Shown here: one piece after another, positions 13,307-64,000 of the stretch
Position numbering within the stretch: the stretch's first letter is position 1
Layout: each line of letters starts with the position of its first letter
Assembly: GCF_000746525.1 (NCBI RefSeq)
Contig: NZ_CP009048.1
Location: forward strand, 3,651,501 to 3,715,500
DNA length: 64,000 nt
Source of the DNA: Pseudomonas alkylphenolica
GTDB lineage: Bacteria > Pseudomonadota > Gammaproteobacteria > Pseudomonadales > Pseudomonadaceae
Direction: 5' to 3'
Program-made: the position numbers and the translations under genes
The notes under the pieces: model-generated
The model's input: only the letters and a program-made list of their open reading frames with translations
The model's database searches: none
What the model was told of the DNA's origin: nothing

Positions 13307-13987
13307 ATGTGCGGAAGACTCAGCCAGTACCGTGGCATTCACGATTTCGTCGACGCCCTGAGCATGCCCGGTGCCCTGGCCAATGAAGTCGGCGATCAGC
13401 CTTTGGCGCACTACAATGTTGCCCCCAGCACTAACGTCGCCGTCCTGTCCGCGCAGCGTGCCCATTGGTTGCGTTGGGGCTGGCGCCCGCACTGGGCCCA
13501 TGACCGGGCAGCACCGATCAATGCGCGGGTGGAGAAAGTCGCGCATTCACCGTTCTTCCGGGCGATCTGGGGGCACCGGTTGATCGTACCGATTGATGGC
13601 TGGTTCGAATGGGTCGATGAAGGCGAAGCAAAAAAACAGCCCTACTATATTCATCGCCGCGATGGCCTGCCGGCGTTCTGCGCCGGCATTGGCCAATGGG
13701 GAGTGGCCGAGGACGATGGCTTTGTCATCATCACCGCCGACAGCGTCGGTGGCATGGTTGATATCCATGACCGCAGGCCGGTGGTGCTCGCGCCGGCCCT
13801 GGCCCGGGATTGGTTGAACCCTGATTGCGACAAGGGCCAGGCTGAACAGATGGTGCTCAACCTGGGTGAGCCGGCAGAGGCCTTCAATTGGTACCGTGTC
13901 GACAAGGCCGTGGGCAATGTGCGCAACCAGGGCGCCAACCTCATCGGTAGGAGCGGCGGTGCGGCGACCCGACTTGCCCCGCGATAA
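13307..13987 (+). CDS. yedK: SRAP protein, YedK/HMCES-type abasic-site DNA crosslinker
   Basis: 226 residues. The catalytic Cys2 (MCGRL) is exposed after Met removal. The other conserved residues are present: Asn72 in NARVEK, Glu101 in GWFEW and His154 in IHDRRPVVL. Proteins of this family form a thiazolidine crosslink with abasic sites in single-stranded DNA and so shield them during replication. The start ATG is fixed by the need for Cys at position 2. No SOS box is visible upstream despite the family's common SOS label. Confidence 0.9.
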   Translation: MCGRLSQYRGIHDFVDALSMPGALANEVGDQPLAHYNVAPSTNVAVLSAQRAHWLRWGWRPHWAHDRAAPINARVEKVAHSPFFRAIWGHRLIVPIDGWFEWVDEGEAKKQPYYIHRRDGLPAFCAGIGQWGVAEDDGFVIITADSVGGMVDIHDRRPVVLAPALARDWLNPDCDKGQAEQMVLNLGEPAEAFNWYRVDKAVGNVRNQGANLIGRSGGAATRLAPR

Positions 13988-28738: not shown

Positions 28739-29077
28739 ATCGACCCGCCAGTTACATCGCATCGCGGGAAAATCCCGCTTCAACGTGTTGCTCTTGATCT
28801 TCATACACGCAATTTCAGGCGCCGCGGATTGCGACTTCAGAAGGCTGAGCGTAGGTGCCTGTAGGGGCCAGTGCGTAGCACCTTCAGCGTAGCCGAAGAG
28901 CGCGAGCCGTAGACTTGGCGAAGCAAGTCGTAGGCCGCGTGGCCCCGGAAGGTGCCGGAGCGAAGGGACCCGGAGCGCAGCGTAGGGCCGGATGCAGGAG
29001 CGAGCGGTTTTGCTGGAACTGTCCCATGACAACGGACGCCAAGAAGCGATACTTACATCGCTAACTTGGAGGTTCCC

Positions 29078-29371
29078 ATGTACCCACCAAATCGCCGTAG
29101 CTACACCGACGAATTCAAGGCCCAAGCTGTTGCACTGGCTGAAACGGTCGGCAGAACCGAAGCCGCTCGTCAGCTAGAGATGTCTGTTAAGACGCTGGAT
29201 AACTGGGTCGATGCGTCACGCAAAGGTCTTCCGTTGAGTTCACCGGAGCGTCAACCTGTTACCAAGGAGAGCAGCGAGCTGGCGCGATTACGGGCCGAGA
29301 ATGCTGAACTCAAAATGGAGCGTGAAATCCTAAAAAAGGCGGCGGTATTCTTTGCCAAAGAGTCCAGGTGA
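29078..29371 (+). CDS. IS3-family transposase OrfA
   Basis: 97 residues from ATG 29078, five bases after GGAGG. The helix-turn-helix (YTDEFKAQAVALAETVGRTEAARQLEMS) is followed by a leucine-zipper-like coiled coil (ELARLRAENAELKMEREILKKA). OrfA binds the terminal repeats. The codons CTA AAA AAG at 29330-29338 hold an A AAA AAG slippery heptamer in the right phase for a -1 shift that would fuse OrfA to OrfB. Its stop overlaps the orfB GTG by four bases. Confidence 0.92.
   Translation: MYPPNRRSYTDEFKAQAVALAETVGRTEAARQLEMSVKTLDNWVDASRKGLPLSSPERQPVTKESSELARLRAENAELKMEREILKKAAVFFAKESR
29332..29338 (+). promoter_or_regulatory. Slippery heptamer for programmed -1 frameshift
   Basis: AAAAAAG read as A AAA AAG in orfA. 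A -1 shift here continues without a stop for ten codons into the GTG of orfB at 29368, giving an OrfAB fusion transposase as in other IS3-family elements. Confidence 0.75.
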
Positions 29372-57339: not shown

Positions 57340-57560
57340 ATCCCATGGAAACCGAAATTCTCTCGGAGAAAGGACTGGCCGAGCTGACCGTCTACAAGGC
57401 CAGGGGCTATCGAGGGTGACTACCTGATTGTCAGCGATAGAGGAAAAGGATGTCAGCCTCAATGCTGCGCAACCGTTGGGACGACGCGAGAGACCTTGCC
57501 AAATCGGCTGCACTGGAGGATGGCGATTGCCTGCTCGCAACCCGGACCAGTTCGTCTCCC
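57340..57560 (+). pseudogene. Integrase fragment (remnant A)
   Basis: Degenerate copy of part of the integrase at 59590-59870. Stretches such as ATGTCAGCCTCAATGCTGCG, CGTTGGGACGACGC and GGCGATTGCCTGCTCG align base for base with the second copy, but the frame is broken and both ends are lost. It merges directly into the LexA box and coiled-coil gene that follow. Confidence 0.6.
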
Positions 57561-57589: not shown

Positions 57590-57609
57590 TACTGTACATT
57601 CAAACAGTA
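57590..57609 (+). promoter_or_regulatory. LexA (SOS) box A
   Basis: TACTGTACATTCAAACAGTA fits the CTG-N10-CAG LexA pattern with TA on both sides. It ends 15 bases before the ATG of the coiled-coil gene at 57625. Confidence 0.7.
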
Positions 57610-57624
57610 TCAGCAGGTGACATC

Positions 57625-57870
57625 ATGATCATCGACGACGACAGCTTTTCGCTGGACATGCCCACGCCCATGGAGATGCTTGAGCAACACGCACTCCTCC
57701 TCCAGGGAGAGAATGAGCAGCTGCAGCACGACCTCTCCCGGGCACGGAAGAACATTGAGAAGCTGGTGGTGATCAACCTCGGTCAGGCCGAGCAGGTCGC
57801 GCAATTGAACGGCAGGGTCAAGCAGCTCACTCGGGACCTATCCAGCGCTACGTGGAAATCACGGACCTGA
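57625..57870 (+). CDS. Small SOS-box-linked coiled-coil protein, copy A (3' frameshift)
   Basis: 81 residues as read, nearly all coiled coil (LLLQGENEQLQHDLSRARKNIEKL, QVAQLNGRVKQLTRDL). It is a clear paralogue of 60437-60742: the openings MIIDDDSFSLDMPTPMEML and MIIEDDSFALGLPTPVEML match almost residue for residue. Near 57851 the frame slips: a second frame gives YVEITDLKSQQ, which aligns with VENTELTNR of copy B and would end at 57905. Function unknown; the LexA box suggests DNA-damage control. Confidence 0.6.
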   Translation: MIIDDDSFSLDMPTPMEMLEQHALLLQGENEQLQHDLSRARKNIEKLVVINLGQAEQVAQLNGRVKQLTRDLSSATWKSRT

Positions 57871-57893
57871 AGAGTCAACAGCTGACTGGCCGC

Positions 57894-58004
57894 TCATCCA
57901 CCTGAGGCGGCACGGCCTTTGGACTCGTTGTATCGGTAGAGCGCACCCATCGCCTGCCGCGTCAGCGGCTCACCAGCGGCGATCTTTTCGTTCAGGTCAT
58001 CCAT
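57894..58004 (-). CDS. Small ORF, 36 residues
   Basis: ATG 58004 is preceded by CAGGGAGC. The peptide starts MDDLNEKIAAGEPLTRQAM and ends in YNESKGRAASGG. Short and helical with good codon use, and of the kind seen in phage or island DNA. No family recognised. Confidence 0.4.
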   Translation of the reverse strand: MDDLNEKIAAGEPLTRQAMGALYRYNESKGRAASGG

Positions 58005-58460
58005 GATTCAGCTCCCTGTTAATTGGTCAGGGCAGTATAGGTCGCCTCGCAGACAGTACCAACCGTGCAAATTTGGTCGACAGCCCGCGAGAGAAAATGG
58101 CGGAAATTTACTATTAGCACAGTGCATCTCTTATAAAAAATAGAAGCTCATAAAGAGTATCGTCACCCTTAGATTTATCGCGAAATACTGGAAATTTCGC
58201 TCGACGCACTCCCCCATTAAAGCGCAAAGTGAAACTTCTCCGACTCTTCGAATAAGAAATAAATTGTAACAAAGACCTCTTGAAATATTCTAAACACCAA
58301 GAAACCAACATTTACTGCGCAAAAATGAGAAACCTTGCCTTTTATAGCTGGATGGAAACCCAGTTCATTAAAGCCCCACCCAATGGTAACGTATGCTTTC
58401 GCATTGCTCAGCACAAGAAACAACATGAGCAAACTTGTTGGTTGAATAAAGGATTAACGA
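58005..58460. other. AT-rich gap without a confident gene
   Basis: Lower GC than its surroundings. A minus-strand frame (58217-58432) would encode a hydrophobic 71-residue peptide, but it lacks a ribosome site. I see no repeat or RNA gene here. Confidence 0.4.
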
Positions 58461-58769
58461 ATGACTATCGAGCGAGAGATTTTCTCGGCCCTTATCGCGC
58501 AGAACGCTTTCCAAGGTGAAAAGCCGAGCGTACAAAGCTACGCCCAGCTAGCCGTCGACAAGGGATTTAGAGCGCTTTCGTCAAGGCAACAGGCAGTGGT
58601 AAGCCCCTTCCTGCAAAAAAAATGCGAGGGTATGAAAAAACCAAATGAAAAACATAACAACTGCCAAAATATTATAGGCGGTCGTGAATTGGTTACAGCC
58701 CTTGAGAAGTCCGAGCATTACAAAGGATGGCGCTGCGAGAGCTGCCGAAGCGCATCTGAAAAACAATAA
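58461..58769 (+). CDS. Small Cys-containing hypothetical protein of accessory type
   Basis: 102 residues from ATG 58461, behind AAGGATT. Opens MTIEREIFSALIAQNAFQGE. Four Cys residues are placed as KKCEG, NNCQN and WRCESCRS, which could bind zinc. Lower GC than the core genes and set among integrase remnants, so probably acquired. No function known. Confidence 0.55.
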   Translation: MTIEREIFSALIAQNAFQGEKPSVQSYAQLAVDKGFRALSSRQQAVVSPFLQKKCEGMKKPNEKHNNCQNIIGGRELVTALEKSEHYKGWRCESCRSASEKQ

Positions 58770-58856
58770 AGGGCTCCAAAGAGAGCAATAACCTAAAAAC
58801 CTATAAAAACAACCAGAAAAATTACTATTGCTCTCGCTACTCCTGAACGTTATTGC

Positions 58857-58894
58857 AGCAGGCCACCACAGGCCTGCTCGCAGGTCTTTTTTTT
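58857..58894 (+). terminator. Rho-independent terminator
   Basis: AGCAGGCC and GGCCTGCT arms around ACCACA, then CGCAGGTC and eight T residues. About 90 bases after the Cys-containing small gene. Confidence 0.75.
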
Positions 58895-59019
58895 CTTTAG
58901 GCCCTGATCAATACCCCCATCAAATCGCCGCTCACTCGTCACGCACTTGAGCACTTCGGAAAAATTTTGCACTTCGCAGCCGAATCCTTCTGCGTGTCTA
59001 ATTTTTTAAGGAGAAAACA

Positions 59020-59151
59020 GTGCCCATATATCAAATAGCACTGCTGGTTGTTTTCGGTATCGCCACACTCTGGTGGGGCTACCGATTGGATAAGAAGAAC
59101 CGTCAAAAAGAGTTGGCCGAAAAAAGACAAAGCGAAACCCGAGCCTCCTAG
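59020..59151 (+). CDS. Small single-span membrane protein
   Basis: 43 residues from GTG 59020, behind AAGGAG. Residues 2-20 are hydrophobic (IALLVVFGIATLWWGY), followed by a highly charged helix (LDKKNRQKELAEKRQ). Typical size and layout of small bacterial membrane proteins. Stop TAG at 59149. No family recognised. Confidence 0.5.
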   Translation: MPIYQIALLVVFGIATLWWGYRLDKKNRQKELAEKRQSETRAS

Positions 59152-59211
59152 GGTCGCTGGCAGACATCCCTGATACACGTCTGCACCGCCCTCAAGGCTG
59201 CTTGGTCGGCG

Positions 59212-60029
59212 ATGAGGTCTCTCCGTAAATCGAGAACAGCTTGTCCAGTTTCTCGACTGAGTTCGACGGTTCCTGCATCACCCAGGCTGGTGCTACCGGG
59301 CACGTCGCCGCCAATCGATGCGCTCACGCCAGCAATGATTGCGCAGTACCGCGACGCCAGATCAGCGAAAGTACGGGCGAATCGCGAGATCGCCACCCTC
59401 TCACACGTATTCAACATGGCCAGGGAATGGGGGCTGACGGCAAAGGAGAACCCGTGCCAAGGCGTTCGCAAGAACAAAGAGATGCCTCGCGACTTCTACG
59501 CCAATGATGCGGTATGGGGCGCGGTGTATCGGAAGTCAGTGCCGGAATTGAAGGACGCTATGGGACAGGCCAGCGTCCTGCGGACGTACTGGTGATGAGG
59601 AAGGACGATATCGAGGGCGGCTATCTGGTTGTGCAGCAGAACAAGACACACAAGAAGCCGCGCATCATGCTCACGGTGGACGGCATAGATAACAGCCTGG
59701 GCAAGCTGATCAAACAGATGGCCGCGCGGAACCAGGGGCACAGCTCCAGCTATCTGATAGTCAGTGGGCGAGGTAAGCGCATGTCTGCGTCGATGCTGCG
59801 CAATCGCTGGGACGAGGCTCGGGCGCTGGCCAGATCGGCAGCGATGGAGGAAGGCGACAGTCTCTTGGCATCTCGAATTACACAGTTCCAGTTCCGAGAC
59901 ATCCGCCCGAAAGCAGCATCCGAAATCAAGGACATCGAGGACGTCAGCCTGCTCTTGGGCCATACCAAGGGCGATATCACCGAACGGGTCTATCGCCGAG
60001 TTGGGGCTATCGCAAAACCGTCAAAATAA
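59212..60029 (+). pseudogene. Tyrosine recombinase (phage-type integrase), broken
   Basis: Family-like sequence starts near 59290 (IDALTPAMIAQYRDAR...NREIATLSHVFNMAREWG, the core-binding domain). Near 59560 the frame is lost by what looks like a deletion of ~15-18 bases before TGQRPADVL. The catalytic domain continues in another frame to 60029 with QFRDIRPKAASE (Arg) and LLGHTKGDITERVYRR (His and Tyr). The extreme N-terminus is not recognisable. It faces the tRNA-Ser fragment 100 bases away, as integrases often do. Confidence 0.75.
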
Positions 60030-60095
60030 GAAAAGTTTCGGAACTCTTAGGCTTTTGCCTAAGTTTGGCAGGGGCTTTTCTCGCCCCCATAAACG

Positions 60096-60120
60096 CAAAA
60101 AGCCCTGAATAATCAGGGCT
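60096..60120 (-). terminator. Terminator following the tRNA-Ser fragment
   Basis: AGCCCTGA and TCAGGGCT arms around a 4-base loop, then five T residues on the minus strand. It lies directly downstream of the tRNA 3' end at 60128. Confidence 0.75.
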
Positions 60121-60127
60121 TTGAATA

Positions 60128-60189
60128 TGGCGGAAGCGTAGAGATTCGAACTCTAGGATAGTTGCCCATCGACGGTTTTCAAGACCGGT
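60128..60189 (-). tRNA. Partial tRNA-Ser (UGA), 3' part only
   Basis: Reading the minus strand from 60189: anticodon loop CTTGAAA (anticodon TGA), a long class II variable arm (CGATGGGCAACTATC), a T arm with GTTCGAATC, and the acceptor 3' strand ending CGCTTCCGCCA. The expected 5' acceptor strand (GGAAGCG) and D arm are absent upstream; sequence diverges at the anticodon stem. This is best explained as the 3' duplication (att site) made by an integrated element, with the intact gene elsewhere. Confidence 0.6.
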
Positions 60190-60227
60190 ACGAAGACGCC
60201 AGCCCGCTGCACCCTTGCACCACATTT

Positions 60228-60304
60228 CAGTTCCAAAACTTTCAAGTTACCGCCCGGCTACAGGCCGCATTCTGCCACGGTACGTGCCTTGAGTTTTGGA
60301 ACTG
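60228..60304. repeat. 13-base inverted repeat with 51-base spacer
   Basis: CAGTTCCAAAACT (60228-60240) and AGTTTTGGAACTG (60292-60304) are perfect complements. They lie just beyond the tRNA fragment and may be part of an old attachment site, but there is no further evidence. Confidence 0.45.
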
Positions 60305-60401
60305 ATTTTCACCCTTCCTCCGGCGTCCTGCCGACCGAACACAATCCCCCTCCCCCCTACAGTTCGTCACCCTGAGGTGGTCAGAATTACCCTACCTCGA
60401 T

Positions 60402-60421
60402 TACTGTATACCCAAACAGTA
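60402..60421 (+). promoter_or_regulatory. LexA (SOS) box B
   Basis: TACTGTATACCCAAACAGTA: CTG-N10-CAG with TA on both sides, very close to the LexA consensus. It ends 15 bases before the ATG at 60437, the same distance as box A. Confidence 0.8.
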
Positions 60422-60436
60422 TTTGCAGGTGACACC

Positions 60437-60742
60437 ATGATCATCGAAGACGACAGCTTCGCGCTGGGCCTGCCCACGCCTGTTGAAATGTTGCGCCAGC
60501 ATGCGCGCCTGGTCGAAGCAGAGTGTGAGCAGTTGCGGCATGAGCTCGACCGGGCCAAGGAGAACATCGAGAAGCTGGTAACCATCCATCAGGCCCAGGC
60601 CGCCGAGATCGCCAAGCTCAACGCCAGGATCGAGCGCATGACCTGGGAGTTGTCCGATGCCCTGGTAGAAAACACCGAACTGACCAATCGAAATATTGGG
60701 GGCTGCCCTGCCACCTGGGGCGCAATGCCGCCGAAGGGTTAG
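60437..60742 (+). CDS. Small SOS-box-linked coiled-coil protein, copy B
   Basis: 101 residues. An acidic N-terminal segment (MIIEDDSFALGLPTPVEML) is followed by a long coiled coil (HARLVEAECEQLRHELDRAKENIEKL, IAKLNARIERMTWELSDAL) and a short Gly/Pro end. Paralogue of 57625-57870, with matching sequence upstream through the LexA box. No known domain. Expression is likely induced by DNA damage (inference from the box). Confidence 0.65.
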   Translation: MIIEDDSFALGLPTPVEMLRQHARLVEAECEQLRHELDRAKENIEKLVTIHQAQAAEIAKLNARIERMTWELSDALVENTELTNRNIGGCPATWGAMPPKG

Positions 60743-61328: not shown

Positions 61329-61874
61329 ATGCAAAAAATCAAAATAATTATTGCTGACGATCATCCCGTTGTCCTCCTCGGTTTGCGCGAACTCATCAAA
61401 CACGACGAACGATTTCTAGTGGTCGGTGAAGCCCTAGGCTCGGCGGAATTGATAGCACTACTCAATCAGAAACAGGTCGACTTACTCATCACCGATTATC
61501 ACATGCCAACCGACTCGCCGCACGGAGATGGACTAAAACTCATCGACTATATCAGGAGACATTTCCCACAGTTGCAAATATTAGTCTTAACAATCCTATC
61601 GCACCGCTTAATTATCGAAAACTTGCATAGAGTGGGCGTAGTCGGCGTGATTCGAAAAAGCCAACTACAGACAGAGATCTTAAATGCGCTTGAAGCGGTT
61701 GTGAAAAAAGCACCTTATATAGCCTCAGACCCAATTAAACAACCAGTTTTAGAGGACTTGTCACCCAAAGAGCTTGAAGTATCACGTGTGCTCATGCTTG
61801 GAAATAGAGTCAAGGACGTCGCTAGCAGTCGAAACCGCAGCGCCAAGACCATTAGCACCCAAAAAGCTCGATAA
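61329..61874 (+). CDS. LuxR-type response regulator truncated in its DNA-binding helix
   Basis: 181 residues. Receiver domain intact: IIADDHPVVLLGL, phospho-acceptor Asp in LLITDYHMP, Thr in LVLTIL and Lys in GVIRKSQL. The LuxR helix-turn-helix begins (LSPKELEVSRVLMLGNRVKDVA) but stops at TAA after SAKTISTQKAR. One frame on, MRKLDFHSD then a TAA where Gln is expected, then ELFVYRL, show the lost tail to about 61945. Hence a frameshift plus a nonsense change. BvgA/FimZ-like; its position suggests it once controlled the fimbrial operon. Confidence 0.7.
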   Translation: MQKIKIIIADDHPVVLLGLRELIKHDERFLVVGEALGSAELIALLNQKQVDLLITDYHMPTDSPHGDGLKLIDYIRRHFPQLQILVLTILSHRLIIENLHRVGVVGVIRKSQLQTEILNALEAVVKKAPYIASDPIKQPVLEDLSPKELEVSRVLMLGNRVKDVASSRNRSAKTISTQKAR

Positions 61875-62011: not shown

Positions 62012-62090
62012 GTCCAGGGCAAATCCTTCCCCCTAACCTGTATTGGCATTTTCATGCAGCACTTTTCAACCAATACAAATGGACATCACT

Positions 62091-62693
62091 ATGAAGAAGT
62101 TCTCACTGGCCCTTATCACCCTGTCCGTACTTGCAGCTTCAGGGGCTGCCCTGGCTGCAGACCCGACGCCTGTTCCTGTTCAAGGTGGCAGCGGCAAGAT
62201 CACCTTCACCGGCGTGATCAACAACGACGCCTGCTCGGTTGACGGCGCCAACGCCGACCGAGTGATTTCCGTCGATATGGGCACTGTGTCGATCAAGGAC
62301 ATGGGCACCGCCGAAAGCCCATCCTCGGGCCGTGTAACCGGTAAAGACTTCAACCTCAATGTCAACTGCAACCTGGGCACCAAAGTCTCGATGATCTTTG
62401 ACGCTGCCAGCGGCGGTTCGGGCCTGGTCACCGGCAAGAAAGTCCTGGCCCTGACCAAAGGCACCGGCACTGCGGCCAACGTCGGTATCGCCCTGCTCGA
62501 CAGCAACGGCGCGCTGATCGACCTGAGCTCGAAAACCACCGCCAAGATCCAGAGCGGCATGCACGGTACCGGCGCTGTCGGTGGTGACGCGATCCTCAAC
62601 TTCTCCGCCGCCTACGTCACCACTGGCGCTGCGGGCACCGCCACCGCCGGTCGCGGTGACGCCACCCTGCCGTTCATTCTGCAATACGAATAA
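62091..62693 (+). CDS. Major fimbrial subunit (chaperone-usher pilin)
   Basis: 200 residues from ATG 62091. Signal peptide (LALITLSVLAASGAALAA), then FTGVINNDACSVDG and the second Cys in NVNCNLG, which form the pilin disulfide. The C-terminus ends in a beta-strand with penultimate Tyr (LPFILQYE), the strand taken up by the chaperone. Gly/Thr/Ala-rich as expected for a type 1-like fimbrial subunit. First gene of the operon; a stable hairpin follows. Confidence 0.9.
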   Translation: MKKFSLALITLSVLAASGAALAADPTPVPVQGGSGKITFTGVINNDACSVDGANADRVISVDMGTVSIKDMGTAESPSSGRVTGKDFNLNVNCNLGTKVSMIFDAASGGSGLVTGKKVLALTKGTGTAANVGIALLDSNGALIDLSSKTTAKIQSGMHGTGAVGGDAILNFSAAYVTTGAAGTATAGRGDATLPFILQYE

Positions 62694-62717
62694 CGCGTAG
62701 CGCCTGAACTGCTATGT

Positions 62718-62737
62718 GCGAGGCCGCCCGGCCTCGC
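62718..62737 (+). promoter_or_regulatory. Intercistronic hairpin between pilin and chaperone
   Basis: GCGAGGCC and GGCCTCGC arms around GCCC, without a T-run. Such hairpins after the pilin gene usually stabilise its message or reduce read-through so pilin exceeds chaperone and usher. Confidence 0.6.
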
Positions 62738-62780
62738 CATTGACGCTGAATCAAAAGCCCTGAATCAAACGGTACACACC

Positions 62781-63524
62781 ATGTTGCGTCGTTCTTTTCC
62801 CGCATGCCTAGGGTTGCTCGGCATGCTCATGGCCGGCCAGGCCATGGCCAGTATTTCATTGAGTGCCACGCGTATTGTCTTTGATGGCAACCACAAGGAA
62901 GCCAACGTCACCGTGCGCAATGGCAACCAGGATGTGCTGATTCAATCCTGGGTCGACAACAACGATACCCAGCGCAGCGTGCCCTTTGCCGTCACCCCGC
63001 CACTGGCACGGGTGTTCGCCCGTGAACAGCAATTACTGCGGGTGCTGTACGAAGGCACGGGCATGCCCGCCGACAAAGAGTCGGTGGTCTGGCTCAACGT
63101 ACAGGAAATCCCTCAGGCTGCGGCGGCGGCCAACACCTTGCAGTTGGCTGTGCGCCAGCGCATCAAGATTTTCTTCCGCCCCGCCGGCTTGCCAGGCAAT
63201 GCCCTGCTGGCGCCGACCGAACTGCAATGGCAACTGCTTCGCCAAAGCGGCAAGCCCCTGTTGCAGGTCAATAATCCGAGCCTGTATCACGTGTCGATGG
63301 CGGATATAAAACTTGAGGCGGGCAAACACAGCGAGCTGGCCGTGGATTCGACCATGGTGGCGCCCGGTGAAGTAAAAACGTTCCCGGTTAAAACGCTAAG
63401 CGCCGACAACAACGTGCGCCTGATGTTCTACAGCATCAATGACTACGGTGCGCAAAGTCAGTACACCGCGACACTGTCCAGCGGCCACGCAAGTACTGCT
63501 GCCGAAGCGCCGACGAAACAATAA
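62781..63524 (+). CDS. Periplasmic fimbrial chaperone
   Basis: 247 residues with a signal ending in GQAMAS. Chaperone features: LSATRIVFDG (conserved Arg), NVTVRN, PFAVTPPLARV, RVLYEG, VVWLNVQEIP and QRIKIFFRP (conserved Lys). Of the FGS (FimC/PapD-like) class. Caps pilin subunits and delivers them to the usher downstream. Confidence 0.92.
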   Translation: MLRRSFPACLGLLGMLMAGQAMASISLSATRIVFDGNHKEANVTVRNGNQDVLIQSWVDNNDTQRSVPFAVTPPLARVFAREQQLLRVLYEGTGMPADKESVVWLNVQEIPQAAAAANTLQLAVRQRIKIFFRPAGLPGNALLAPTELQWQLLRQSGKPLLQVNNPSLYHVSMADIKLEAGKHSELAVDSTMVAPGEVKTFPVKTLSADNNVRLMFYSINDYGAQSQYTATLSSGHASTAAEAPTKQ

Positions 63525-63610
63525 CGATTGAGGCCGAGGCTTTAATCCTGCGCGTGATTGCGCCCCTCGCCGCGCCCAGTCGTCATTGACGATGATACAG
63601 GTTCCTTTGC

Positions 63611-64000
63611 ATGTCTTTTTCTTCCGGTAACAGGCCAACTCATTGCGCCGGCCAACGCCTGCGCGCCCACTCTGTAACGGCCAGCCTGTTGAAGTTGAGC
63701 GCCCTGTCGCTGGCGGTAGTTGCCGCGCTGCCGGCCCTGGCCGAACAGCACGCCAGCGATGCGCAACAACTGGAAGCCTTCAACACCACCTTTTTGCAAG
63801 GCGCGCCGTCGTCGGTTGACCTGCAACTGTTGCTGTCGGCCAACAGCGTACTGCCGGGCAATTACCGGGTCGACCTGTACAGCAACGAAGTGCTGGTGGG
63901 CCGGCGTGACGTCGACTTCAACCGCAACCCGGCCACCGGCCGTGTCGAGCCCTGCCTGACCCTGGAACTGCTGCAACAGCTGGGCATCGACATGAACAAG
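63611..64000 (+). CDS. Outer-membrane fimbrial usher (5' part, runs off window)
   Basis: 130 residues visible from ATG 63611. A long N-terminal signal (LLKLSALSLAVVAALPALA) is followed by the usher N-domain: FNTTFLQGA, VDLQLL, LPGNYRVDLYSNEVLVGRRDVDF and PCLTLELLQQLGID, all typical of FimD/PapC. It lies 86 bases after the chaperone. The barrel and C-terminal domains are outside the window. Confidence 0.92.
   Translation, partial: MSFSSGNRPTHCAGQRLRAHSVTASLLKLSALSLAVVAALPALAEQHASDAQQLEAFNTTFLQGAPSSVDLQLLLSANSVLPGNYRVDLYSNEVLVGRRDVDFNRNPATGRVEPCLTLELLQQLGIDMNK

Follow-up and report, generated by a model that had tools for sequence, protein, structure and literature searches.

In the portion of PMC3121763 consulted, the prophage genes named as LexA-controlled are antirepressors and DinI homologues of enteric phages; Tum of coliphage 186 is an antirepressor according both to the 186 annotation and to that portion of the source. 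In the phage 186 genome, a LexA box (29044-29063) precedes tum (start at 29082) with an 18-nucleotide (nt) gap, a second gene, orf97, follows, and the operon lies near the genome end. SRAP proteins have been noted in lysogenic phages, and a damage-sensor role is suggested for them in the consulted part of PMC3765255. Here, we examined 64,000 nt of Pseudomonas alkylphenolica (contig NZ_CP009048.1, positions 3,651,501 to 3,715,500; hereafter the window), in which two small genes, genes 1 and 2, each follow a LexA-type box (table 1). Within an explanation that, taken as a whole, we consider reasonably probable, both would be decayed members of a gene family of Pseudomonas prophages.

The original prediction, drawn from the letters of this stretch, described two paralogous coiled-coil genes, each 15 bases behind a LexA box and preceded by an integrase or a remnant of one, with homology running from before the box into a protein of no recognized family, and on all these points it was borne out. 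The start codons (ATG at 57625 and 60437) each lie 15 nt after a box, and the two boxes are the only exact occurrences of TACTGTN8ACAGTA in the window. DNA homology between the copies starts before the box, at 57548 and 60360, and extends for 296 nt at 72% identity; the encoded proteins (81 and 101 residues) are 53% identical, the C-terminal part of gene 1 being out of frame relative to gene 2 from about codon 75. The ratio of nonsynonymous to synonymous substitution rates (dN/dS) of gene 2 against two near relatives is 0.20 and 0.28. With up to three mismatches allowed, the window holds 11 matches to the pattern versus 8.9 expected, that is, chance level, and a window scan for boxes agreeing at 13 or more of 20 positions gave none besides boxes 1 and 2. 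Across the complete genome (5.76 Mb), there are four exact occurrences of the pattern and none of a reversed control; the two that lie outside the window precede a UmuD-like and a radical-SAM-like open reading frame (ORF), both named by reading their translations. The radical-SAM-like type is presumably a member of the P. aeruginosa LexA regulon, a membership on which our literature search turned up nothing.

The box is also regular among relatives. Counting distinct proteins in long loci with 120 nt of upstream sequence, it stands before 100 of 107 relatives, compared with 16 of 1717 other ORFs of the same loci, the latter being mechanical longest ORFs whose starts may be wrong; a count that includes some places twice gives 132 of 142. 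The gap between box and start is 14-16 nt in 70 of the 100 boxed relatives, and the box was found in 68 of the 72 relatives from named genomes and in all five phage-collection members checked for it. The consensus box thus occurs above chance both in the genome (four places vs none for the control) and before the family (100/107 vs 16/1717). The LexA-type control originally proposed is, at the level of sequence, well supported, and the family is predicted to be damage-induced.

The protein is modelled as a coiled-coil-like long helix with a conserved N-terminal half. AlphaFold predicts a single helix (residues 15-88), confident over most of its length, in a model with a mean predicted local distance difference test (pLDDT) of 85.7. 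Between residues 15 and 85, hydrophobicity repeats with a period of 3.53, in keeping with a coiled coil, at a power reached by 6 of 2000 shuffles, and conservation is higher in the first 50 residues. Scans of genes 1 and 2 against Pfam, NCBIfam, and PHROG yielded no fitting family, only weak matches typical of coiled coils, and DinI (PF06183) was absent from the 13 families listed for gene 1 and from the best 25 of 26 for gene 2. A fold search gave no match in the PDB with E up to 10 and three in BFVD (E 5.8-8.0), and a sequence search of solved structures returned coiled-coil-type matches only (best E 5.9e-4). Similarly, PADLOC hits were weak and fell on long proteins of coiled-coil type (best E 6.9e-5, gene 2), so that a phage-defence role, once put forward as one option, finds no support.

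In the genus of the window, a 49-member profile of the family matched 131 of 398 sampled genomes. A class-wide sample gave matches in 3 of 274 genomes, namely the P. alkylphenolica genome itself and two weak matches in frames of 258 and 1171 residues, and an order-wide sample, searched with a smaller profile (A1), in 3 of 293, two of the same genus and one weak match in a 575-residue frame; profile A4 matched one further genome of that sample (G113), again of the same genus. As sampled, nothing convincing appears outside the genus, these out-of-genus searches scoring only 11-16 candidates per genome, such that relatives may be missed. All 72 genome loci recovered by a pattern scan are titled Pseudomonas, three records of the phage collection match the window protein and four a member of the SRAP-linked subfamily, and a plasmid search gave no match to the family. 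Members at seven loci (L029, L079, L083, L084, L089, L124, and L126) end in -TIV, perhaps a binding or degradation tail. In phage records, the VW-6S and PseuP_224 members are deposited as "defense against restriction protein A" (DarA) and that of PseuP_222 as "minor tail protein"; the former name was unsupported by Pfam and PHROG scans of the VW-6S member, the latter by a Pfam scan of the PseuP_222 member. The PseuP_224 record seems to open inside the coiled-coil gene, which is split over both ends (L033 8001-8132 and L035 4989-5183), with the far piece, by reading, carrying the DarA name; L033 ends inside the gene and cannot show an SRAP neighbour.

Within 400 nt downstream of the family gene, 69 of 123 relatives have an SRAP gene in the same orientation (61 of 80 viral and 8 of 43 other loci), a number that rises to 71 with a wider limit. 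The viral set consists of the 80 best of 303 loci recovered with an alignment of five members of one subfamily, and so over-represents the subfamily linked to SRAP. Loci L036-L075, from genomes, comprise 40 stretches drawn from the highest entries of a match list; among named genomes, SRAP is found downstream in 25 of 72. The identity of the partner is clear from PF02586 (E 1.6e-45 and 7.7e-47 in two members) and from YedK structures (best E 8.9e-50). The SRAP start follows the coiled-coil stop by 17-32 nt in 64 of the 71 cases and by 270-297 nt in six, and the SRAP protein begins with MCGR in 70 and with VCGR in the other. In YedK/HMCES proteins, the cysteine after the methionine links to abasic sites. 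In the 80 nt before the 70 SRAP genes that begin with MCGR, no separate CTG-N10-CAG box was found. In PseuP_222, the order is integrase, family gene, a gene annotated as "SOS response associated peptidase", then convergent methylase, endolysin, and tail genes. A broken SRAP gene, in three pieces and two frames, lies 6.3 kb behind gene 2 and on its strand (genome 3718529-3719187; L165 6530-7188), outside the window and behind fimbrial genes of the same mobile stretch, which fits the operon reading. The window also contains, at 13307-13987, an intact SRAP ORF of 226 residues with an MCGR start (E 1.7e-112 to the prophage SRAP profile), with ordinary-looking gene neighbours and neither a LexA-type box nor a coiled-coil gene beside it; it is probably the chromosomal SRAP.

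Where does the gene sit in less decayed elements? An integrase match was found in 42 of 49 viral records, within 3.5 kb of the far record end in 38 (26 pointing outward and 12 inward), and the coiled-coil gene starts within 9 kb of the near end in 48 of the 49. At least one phage gene cluster converging on it was found no more than 6 kb away in 78 of the 80 viral loci and in 22 of the 42 genome/phage loci; these opposite-strand clusters downstream include spanin, tail J, tail fibre, portal, endolysin, DNA methyltransferase, and a phage family of unknown function, nine clusters being counted, seven scanned by profile (the unknown-function family among them) and two named by reading. In 11 of the 72 named loci, the gene is preceded at a distance of 173-553 nt by a complete tRNA-Ser(TGA) or tRNA-Leu(TAA) of the same strand, and 15 of the 72 have any tRNA within 2.5 kb. 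Given these far-end integrases, converging clusters, and upstream tRNAs, the usual place of the gene would be near an attachment (att) site, at the end away from the integrase. A further small ORF of about 70 residues (L140 1-204 and other viral loci) matches phrog_12397 (E 1.8e-35), of unknown function; its cluster is represented in 32 loci and precedes the coiled-coil gene, in the same orientation, 27 times.

This placement bears on the idea, advanced in the original prediction, of a repeated module made of a recombinase and a small SOS-induced coiled-coil protein. LexA-type control, a coiled-coil-like product, and a mobile setting all stand, but the module as a fixed unit does not: with eight integrase seeds, the 1.5 kb upstream of the gene contained an integrase-like ORF of the same orientation in 9 of 122 long loci. 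In other words, of the two companions to be looked for in Pseudomonas genomes, the box is nearly constant and the integrase, with these seeds, mostly not found. A fixed pairing was rejected, the upstream integrase being mostly not found or apparently a neighbour's. The window would instead represent a decayed tandem array of related elements at tRNA-Ser(TGA), as suggested by its repeats and gene order. The integrase before gene 2 lies in two overlapping frames. The tRNA piece behind it, which the original prediction had not noted, belongs to a region of 112 bases, 96% identical to a region 13.5 kb further on; the latter includes a complete tRNA-Ser(TGA) (genome 3725242-3725329), closely preceded by a third integrase-like ORF that shares 44% identity with the window integrase over 170 residues. 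ARAGORN detected no complete tRNA in the window. The intervening 13.5 kb hold a fimbrial operon and a spanin-like ORF (both named by reading) together with the broken SRAP gene; in addition, the stretch 3720089-3720240 matches the region behind the tRNA piece at 74% and may be a vestige of yet another element. An integrase followed by a coiled-coil gene would thus be seen twice because each junction joins the integrase end of one element to the coiled-coil end of the next, the integrase fragment with gene 1 being a further, more decayed junction.

A comparable arrangement is found in genome G007, where a gene 90% identical to gene 2 has an integrase 285 nt upstream; between them stands a repeat whose other copy (89%, 36 columns) closely follows a second integrase some 43 kb distant, an arrangement to be expected if two elements share one att site. 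The two G007 integrases share 77% DNA identity over 146 nt, and a third integrase match is present on the contig at 36353-36778. Similarly, the gene at L131 is preceded by one integrase, and a further one lies 27 nt from the far record end. Tandem prophages can, in this manner, imitate an integrase module. At L038 (7319-9182), an integrase precedes the gene by 77 nt, and at L072 (9484-11235) a serine-recombinase-like ORF, named by reading, lies upstream. Other genes of the mobile stretch include a chaperone-usher fimbrial operon, named by reading (window 62043-64000 and L165 1544-6475), and, between the tRNA piece and the complete tRNA, a response-regulator ORF (61329-61874; PF00072, E 9.1e-19) whose LuxR-type domain is matched at positions 3-38 of 57 only and may be truncated. 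A 102-residue ORF between the two modules (58461-58769) matches phrog_12178, of unknown function (E 3.9e-27).

Table 1. Features of the two gene copies, their mobile surroundings, and the other exactly boxed genes of the genome (positions are those of the window unless a locus is named)
Feature	Position	Strand	Evidence or remark
Integrase fragment, 37 residues	57444..57554	+	blastx, 73% identity to the 59514-60029 integrase; DNA repeat D2; tail of the upstream decayed element
LexA-type box 1	57590..57609	+	TACTGTACATTCAAACAGTA; exact consensus; one of four places in the genome
Coiled-coil gene 1, 81 residues	57625..57870	+	Family profile match, E 4.7e-27
Integrase, N-terminal portion, separate frame	59212..59595	+	PF24624 Int_N, E 5e-6
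Integrase, catalytic portion	59514..60029	+	PF00589 Phage_integrase, E 2.6e-11; 56% identical to the L131 upstream integrase
tRNA-Ser(TGA) 3' part, att copy between integrase and gene 2	60128..60187, approximate (gapped alignment)	-	112-base match
LexA-type box 2	60402..60421	+	TACTGTATACCCAAACAGTA; exact consensus; one of four places in the genome
Coiled-coil gene 2, 101 residues	60437..60742	+	Helix model; dN/dS against near relatives
UmuD-like ORF	L248 1501-1962		Own genome; exact box 16 nt before
Radical-SAM-like ORF	L247 1501-2598		Own genome; exact box 16 nt before

We propose that the host LexA would repress this prophage gene and that DNA damage, by destroying LexA, would turn it on. 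In less decayed prophages, the gene would stand near the integrase-distal end, close to att, pointing inward against lysis, tail, and portal genes, often as the first of an operon in which SRAP, a YedK/HMCES-type abasic-site protein, follows at the short distance given above. At an early stage of prophage exit, the protein may engage a target shared by these phages rather than each phage's own repressor, candidates being the host RecA, LexA, or replication machinery, or single-stranded or abasic DNA together with SRAP; in P. alkylphenolica, related elements would have piled up at tRNA-Ser(TGA) and then decayed. Overall, an SOS protein of prophages, repressed by LexA and directed at the host or at the DNA-damage machinery, seems to us somewhat better than an even bet, and differently built Pseudomonas prophages probably switch on the same protein upon host DNA damage. 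An S24 protein was found in 27 of 50 records, in frames mostly of 220-340 residues that fit repressors rather than UmuD and are to be read as candidate repressors only; the other 23 have no detectable one. When the comparison was limited to records of at least 36 kb (six of the 23 being shorter), the coiled-coil proteins of the 17 records without an S24 match were 73-94% identical to their best match among S24-bearing records, one of them compared over 62 residues only. For a protein obliged to match the repressor of its own phage, such similarity with and without S24 would be surprising, and a shared target may fit better. Tentatively, and with less than even confidence, we envisage a genus-specific SOS effector: unrelated temperate phages of Pseudomonas (lambda-like and P2-like, so named by reading), with or without S24, would share one LexA-repressed helical protein, often coupled to SRAP as a shield of abasic sites, that loads or steers SRAP (or RecA/LexA) on damaged single-stranded DNA. 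If so, the helper would act on the DNA of both the host and the escaping prophage, and co-resident prophages would make the same helper when leaving.

The box, its spacing, position, gene order, and the limit to the genus, as sampled, can be read from the sequences compared, and LexA binding and induction are predicted from those same sequences. Several observations weigh against the explanation. The first 10 residues of the helix model, including a short helix at 7-10, are of low confidence (mean pLDDT 53), and the predicted template modelling score (pTM) is 0.52. The SRAP partnership is not general, 52-54 of 123 relatives having no SRAP directly behind, and PF02586 is not found directly downstream of either window gene. 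The ends of viral-collection records do not necessarily coincide with att sites, and an integrase stands directly beside the gene at L038 and L041 (77 and 417 nt). Since 20 of the 42 genome/phage loci show none of the phage clusters used, and some of these have serine-recombinase-like ORFs (by reading), not every copy can lie at the end of a standard prophage. Moreover, an S24-negative record may still have a cleavable repressor, S24 matches identify candidates, and records may be incomplete; the high identity across phages could also reflect recent cassette exchange.

Could the protein be an antirepressor under LexA control, like Tum of phage 186 or GfoA/GftA of Gifsy, made during SOS to bind the phage repressor and trigger induction? 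The layout of phage 186 is similar, with its LexA box, 18-nt gap, tum, orf97, and position near the genome end, and the 23 of 50 records without a detectable S24 protein might need such a trigger; yet 27 of the 50 do have one, and closely similar coiled-coil proteins occur in both groups. Tum and GfoA/GftA bind a cognate repressor, as stated in the consulted portion of PMC3121763. Tum further shows no similarity to the family (E 0.23 against its profile) and has a DinI domain (E 1.8e-17), for which the family has no match, and we consider this role unlikely. A protein expressed during SOS so that the element can leave might alternatively assist site-specific recombination, as a directionality factor or excision regulator, a function close to the excision control originally entertained. 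In many phages, circularization would bring the gene and the integrase to opposite sides of attP; the tRNA genes 173-553 nt upstream and the 77-nt distance at L038 would also agree with such a function. The same type of protein, however, occurs with far-end integrases in both orientations and in varied att contexts (tRNA-Ser, tRNA-Leu, and a non-tRNA repeat), and the predicted helix contains no DNA-binding fold. Directionality factors are usually integrase-specific, a further argument against this role, which is in our view quite improbable.

The coupling to SRAP allows yet another scenario, where the coiled-coil frame would serve, as a leader or translational relay, to bring SRAP under the control of LexA, its product mattering little and solo copies being relics. 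SRAP has no box of its own and mostly begins 17-32 nt after the coiled-coil stop (64/71), and the broken SRAP gene beyond gene 2 would fit a relic; nonetheless, most of the 52-54 copies that lack an adjacent SRAP are still boxed, the N-terminal half of the protein is conserved, and dN/dS is 0.11-0.28 among three close copies without an adjacent SRAP, leaving a mere leader with very little probability. The preferred reading thus remains that of an SOS protein whose target would lie in the host or in the DNA-damage machinery.

One third of the sampled genomes of the genus carry an unnamed family behind a very regular LexA-type box, and two names deposited in phage records lack profile support. 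The prophage role of SRAP has so far only been suggested, as far as the consulted part of PMC3765255 goes, and SRAP is often coupled to this family. This raises a testable question, namely the use that prophages make of an abasic-site protein and a helical partner during SOS.

Among described systems, SRAP/YedK operons share with the present one an SRAP gene in an SOS-linked operon, but the partners given in the consulted part of PMC3765255 are translesion polymerases, ImuA/B, Ku, ligase, and helicase, and the word "coiled" does not occur in the text of that source. The dinI-antirepressor SOS loci of Gifsy resemble it as small LexA-controlled prophage genes needed at induction, with a DinI-like gene where the family has a helical protein without a DinI match (PMC3121763, portion consulted). 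By layout, the closest working model would be the p95 operon (tum-orf97) of coliphage 186. Both operons place a LexA box shortly before a small first gene, followed by a second gene, near one genome end; the antirepressor Tum, however, contains a DinI domain and has no sequence similarity to the family, and orf97 gave no SRAP match. LexA-controlled accessory operons of temperate phages are therefore a known kind; what appears to be new, not being described in the open-licence literature searched, is the protein family itself, its link to SRAP, and the fact that Pseudomonas phages of different build have it in common.

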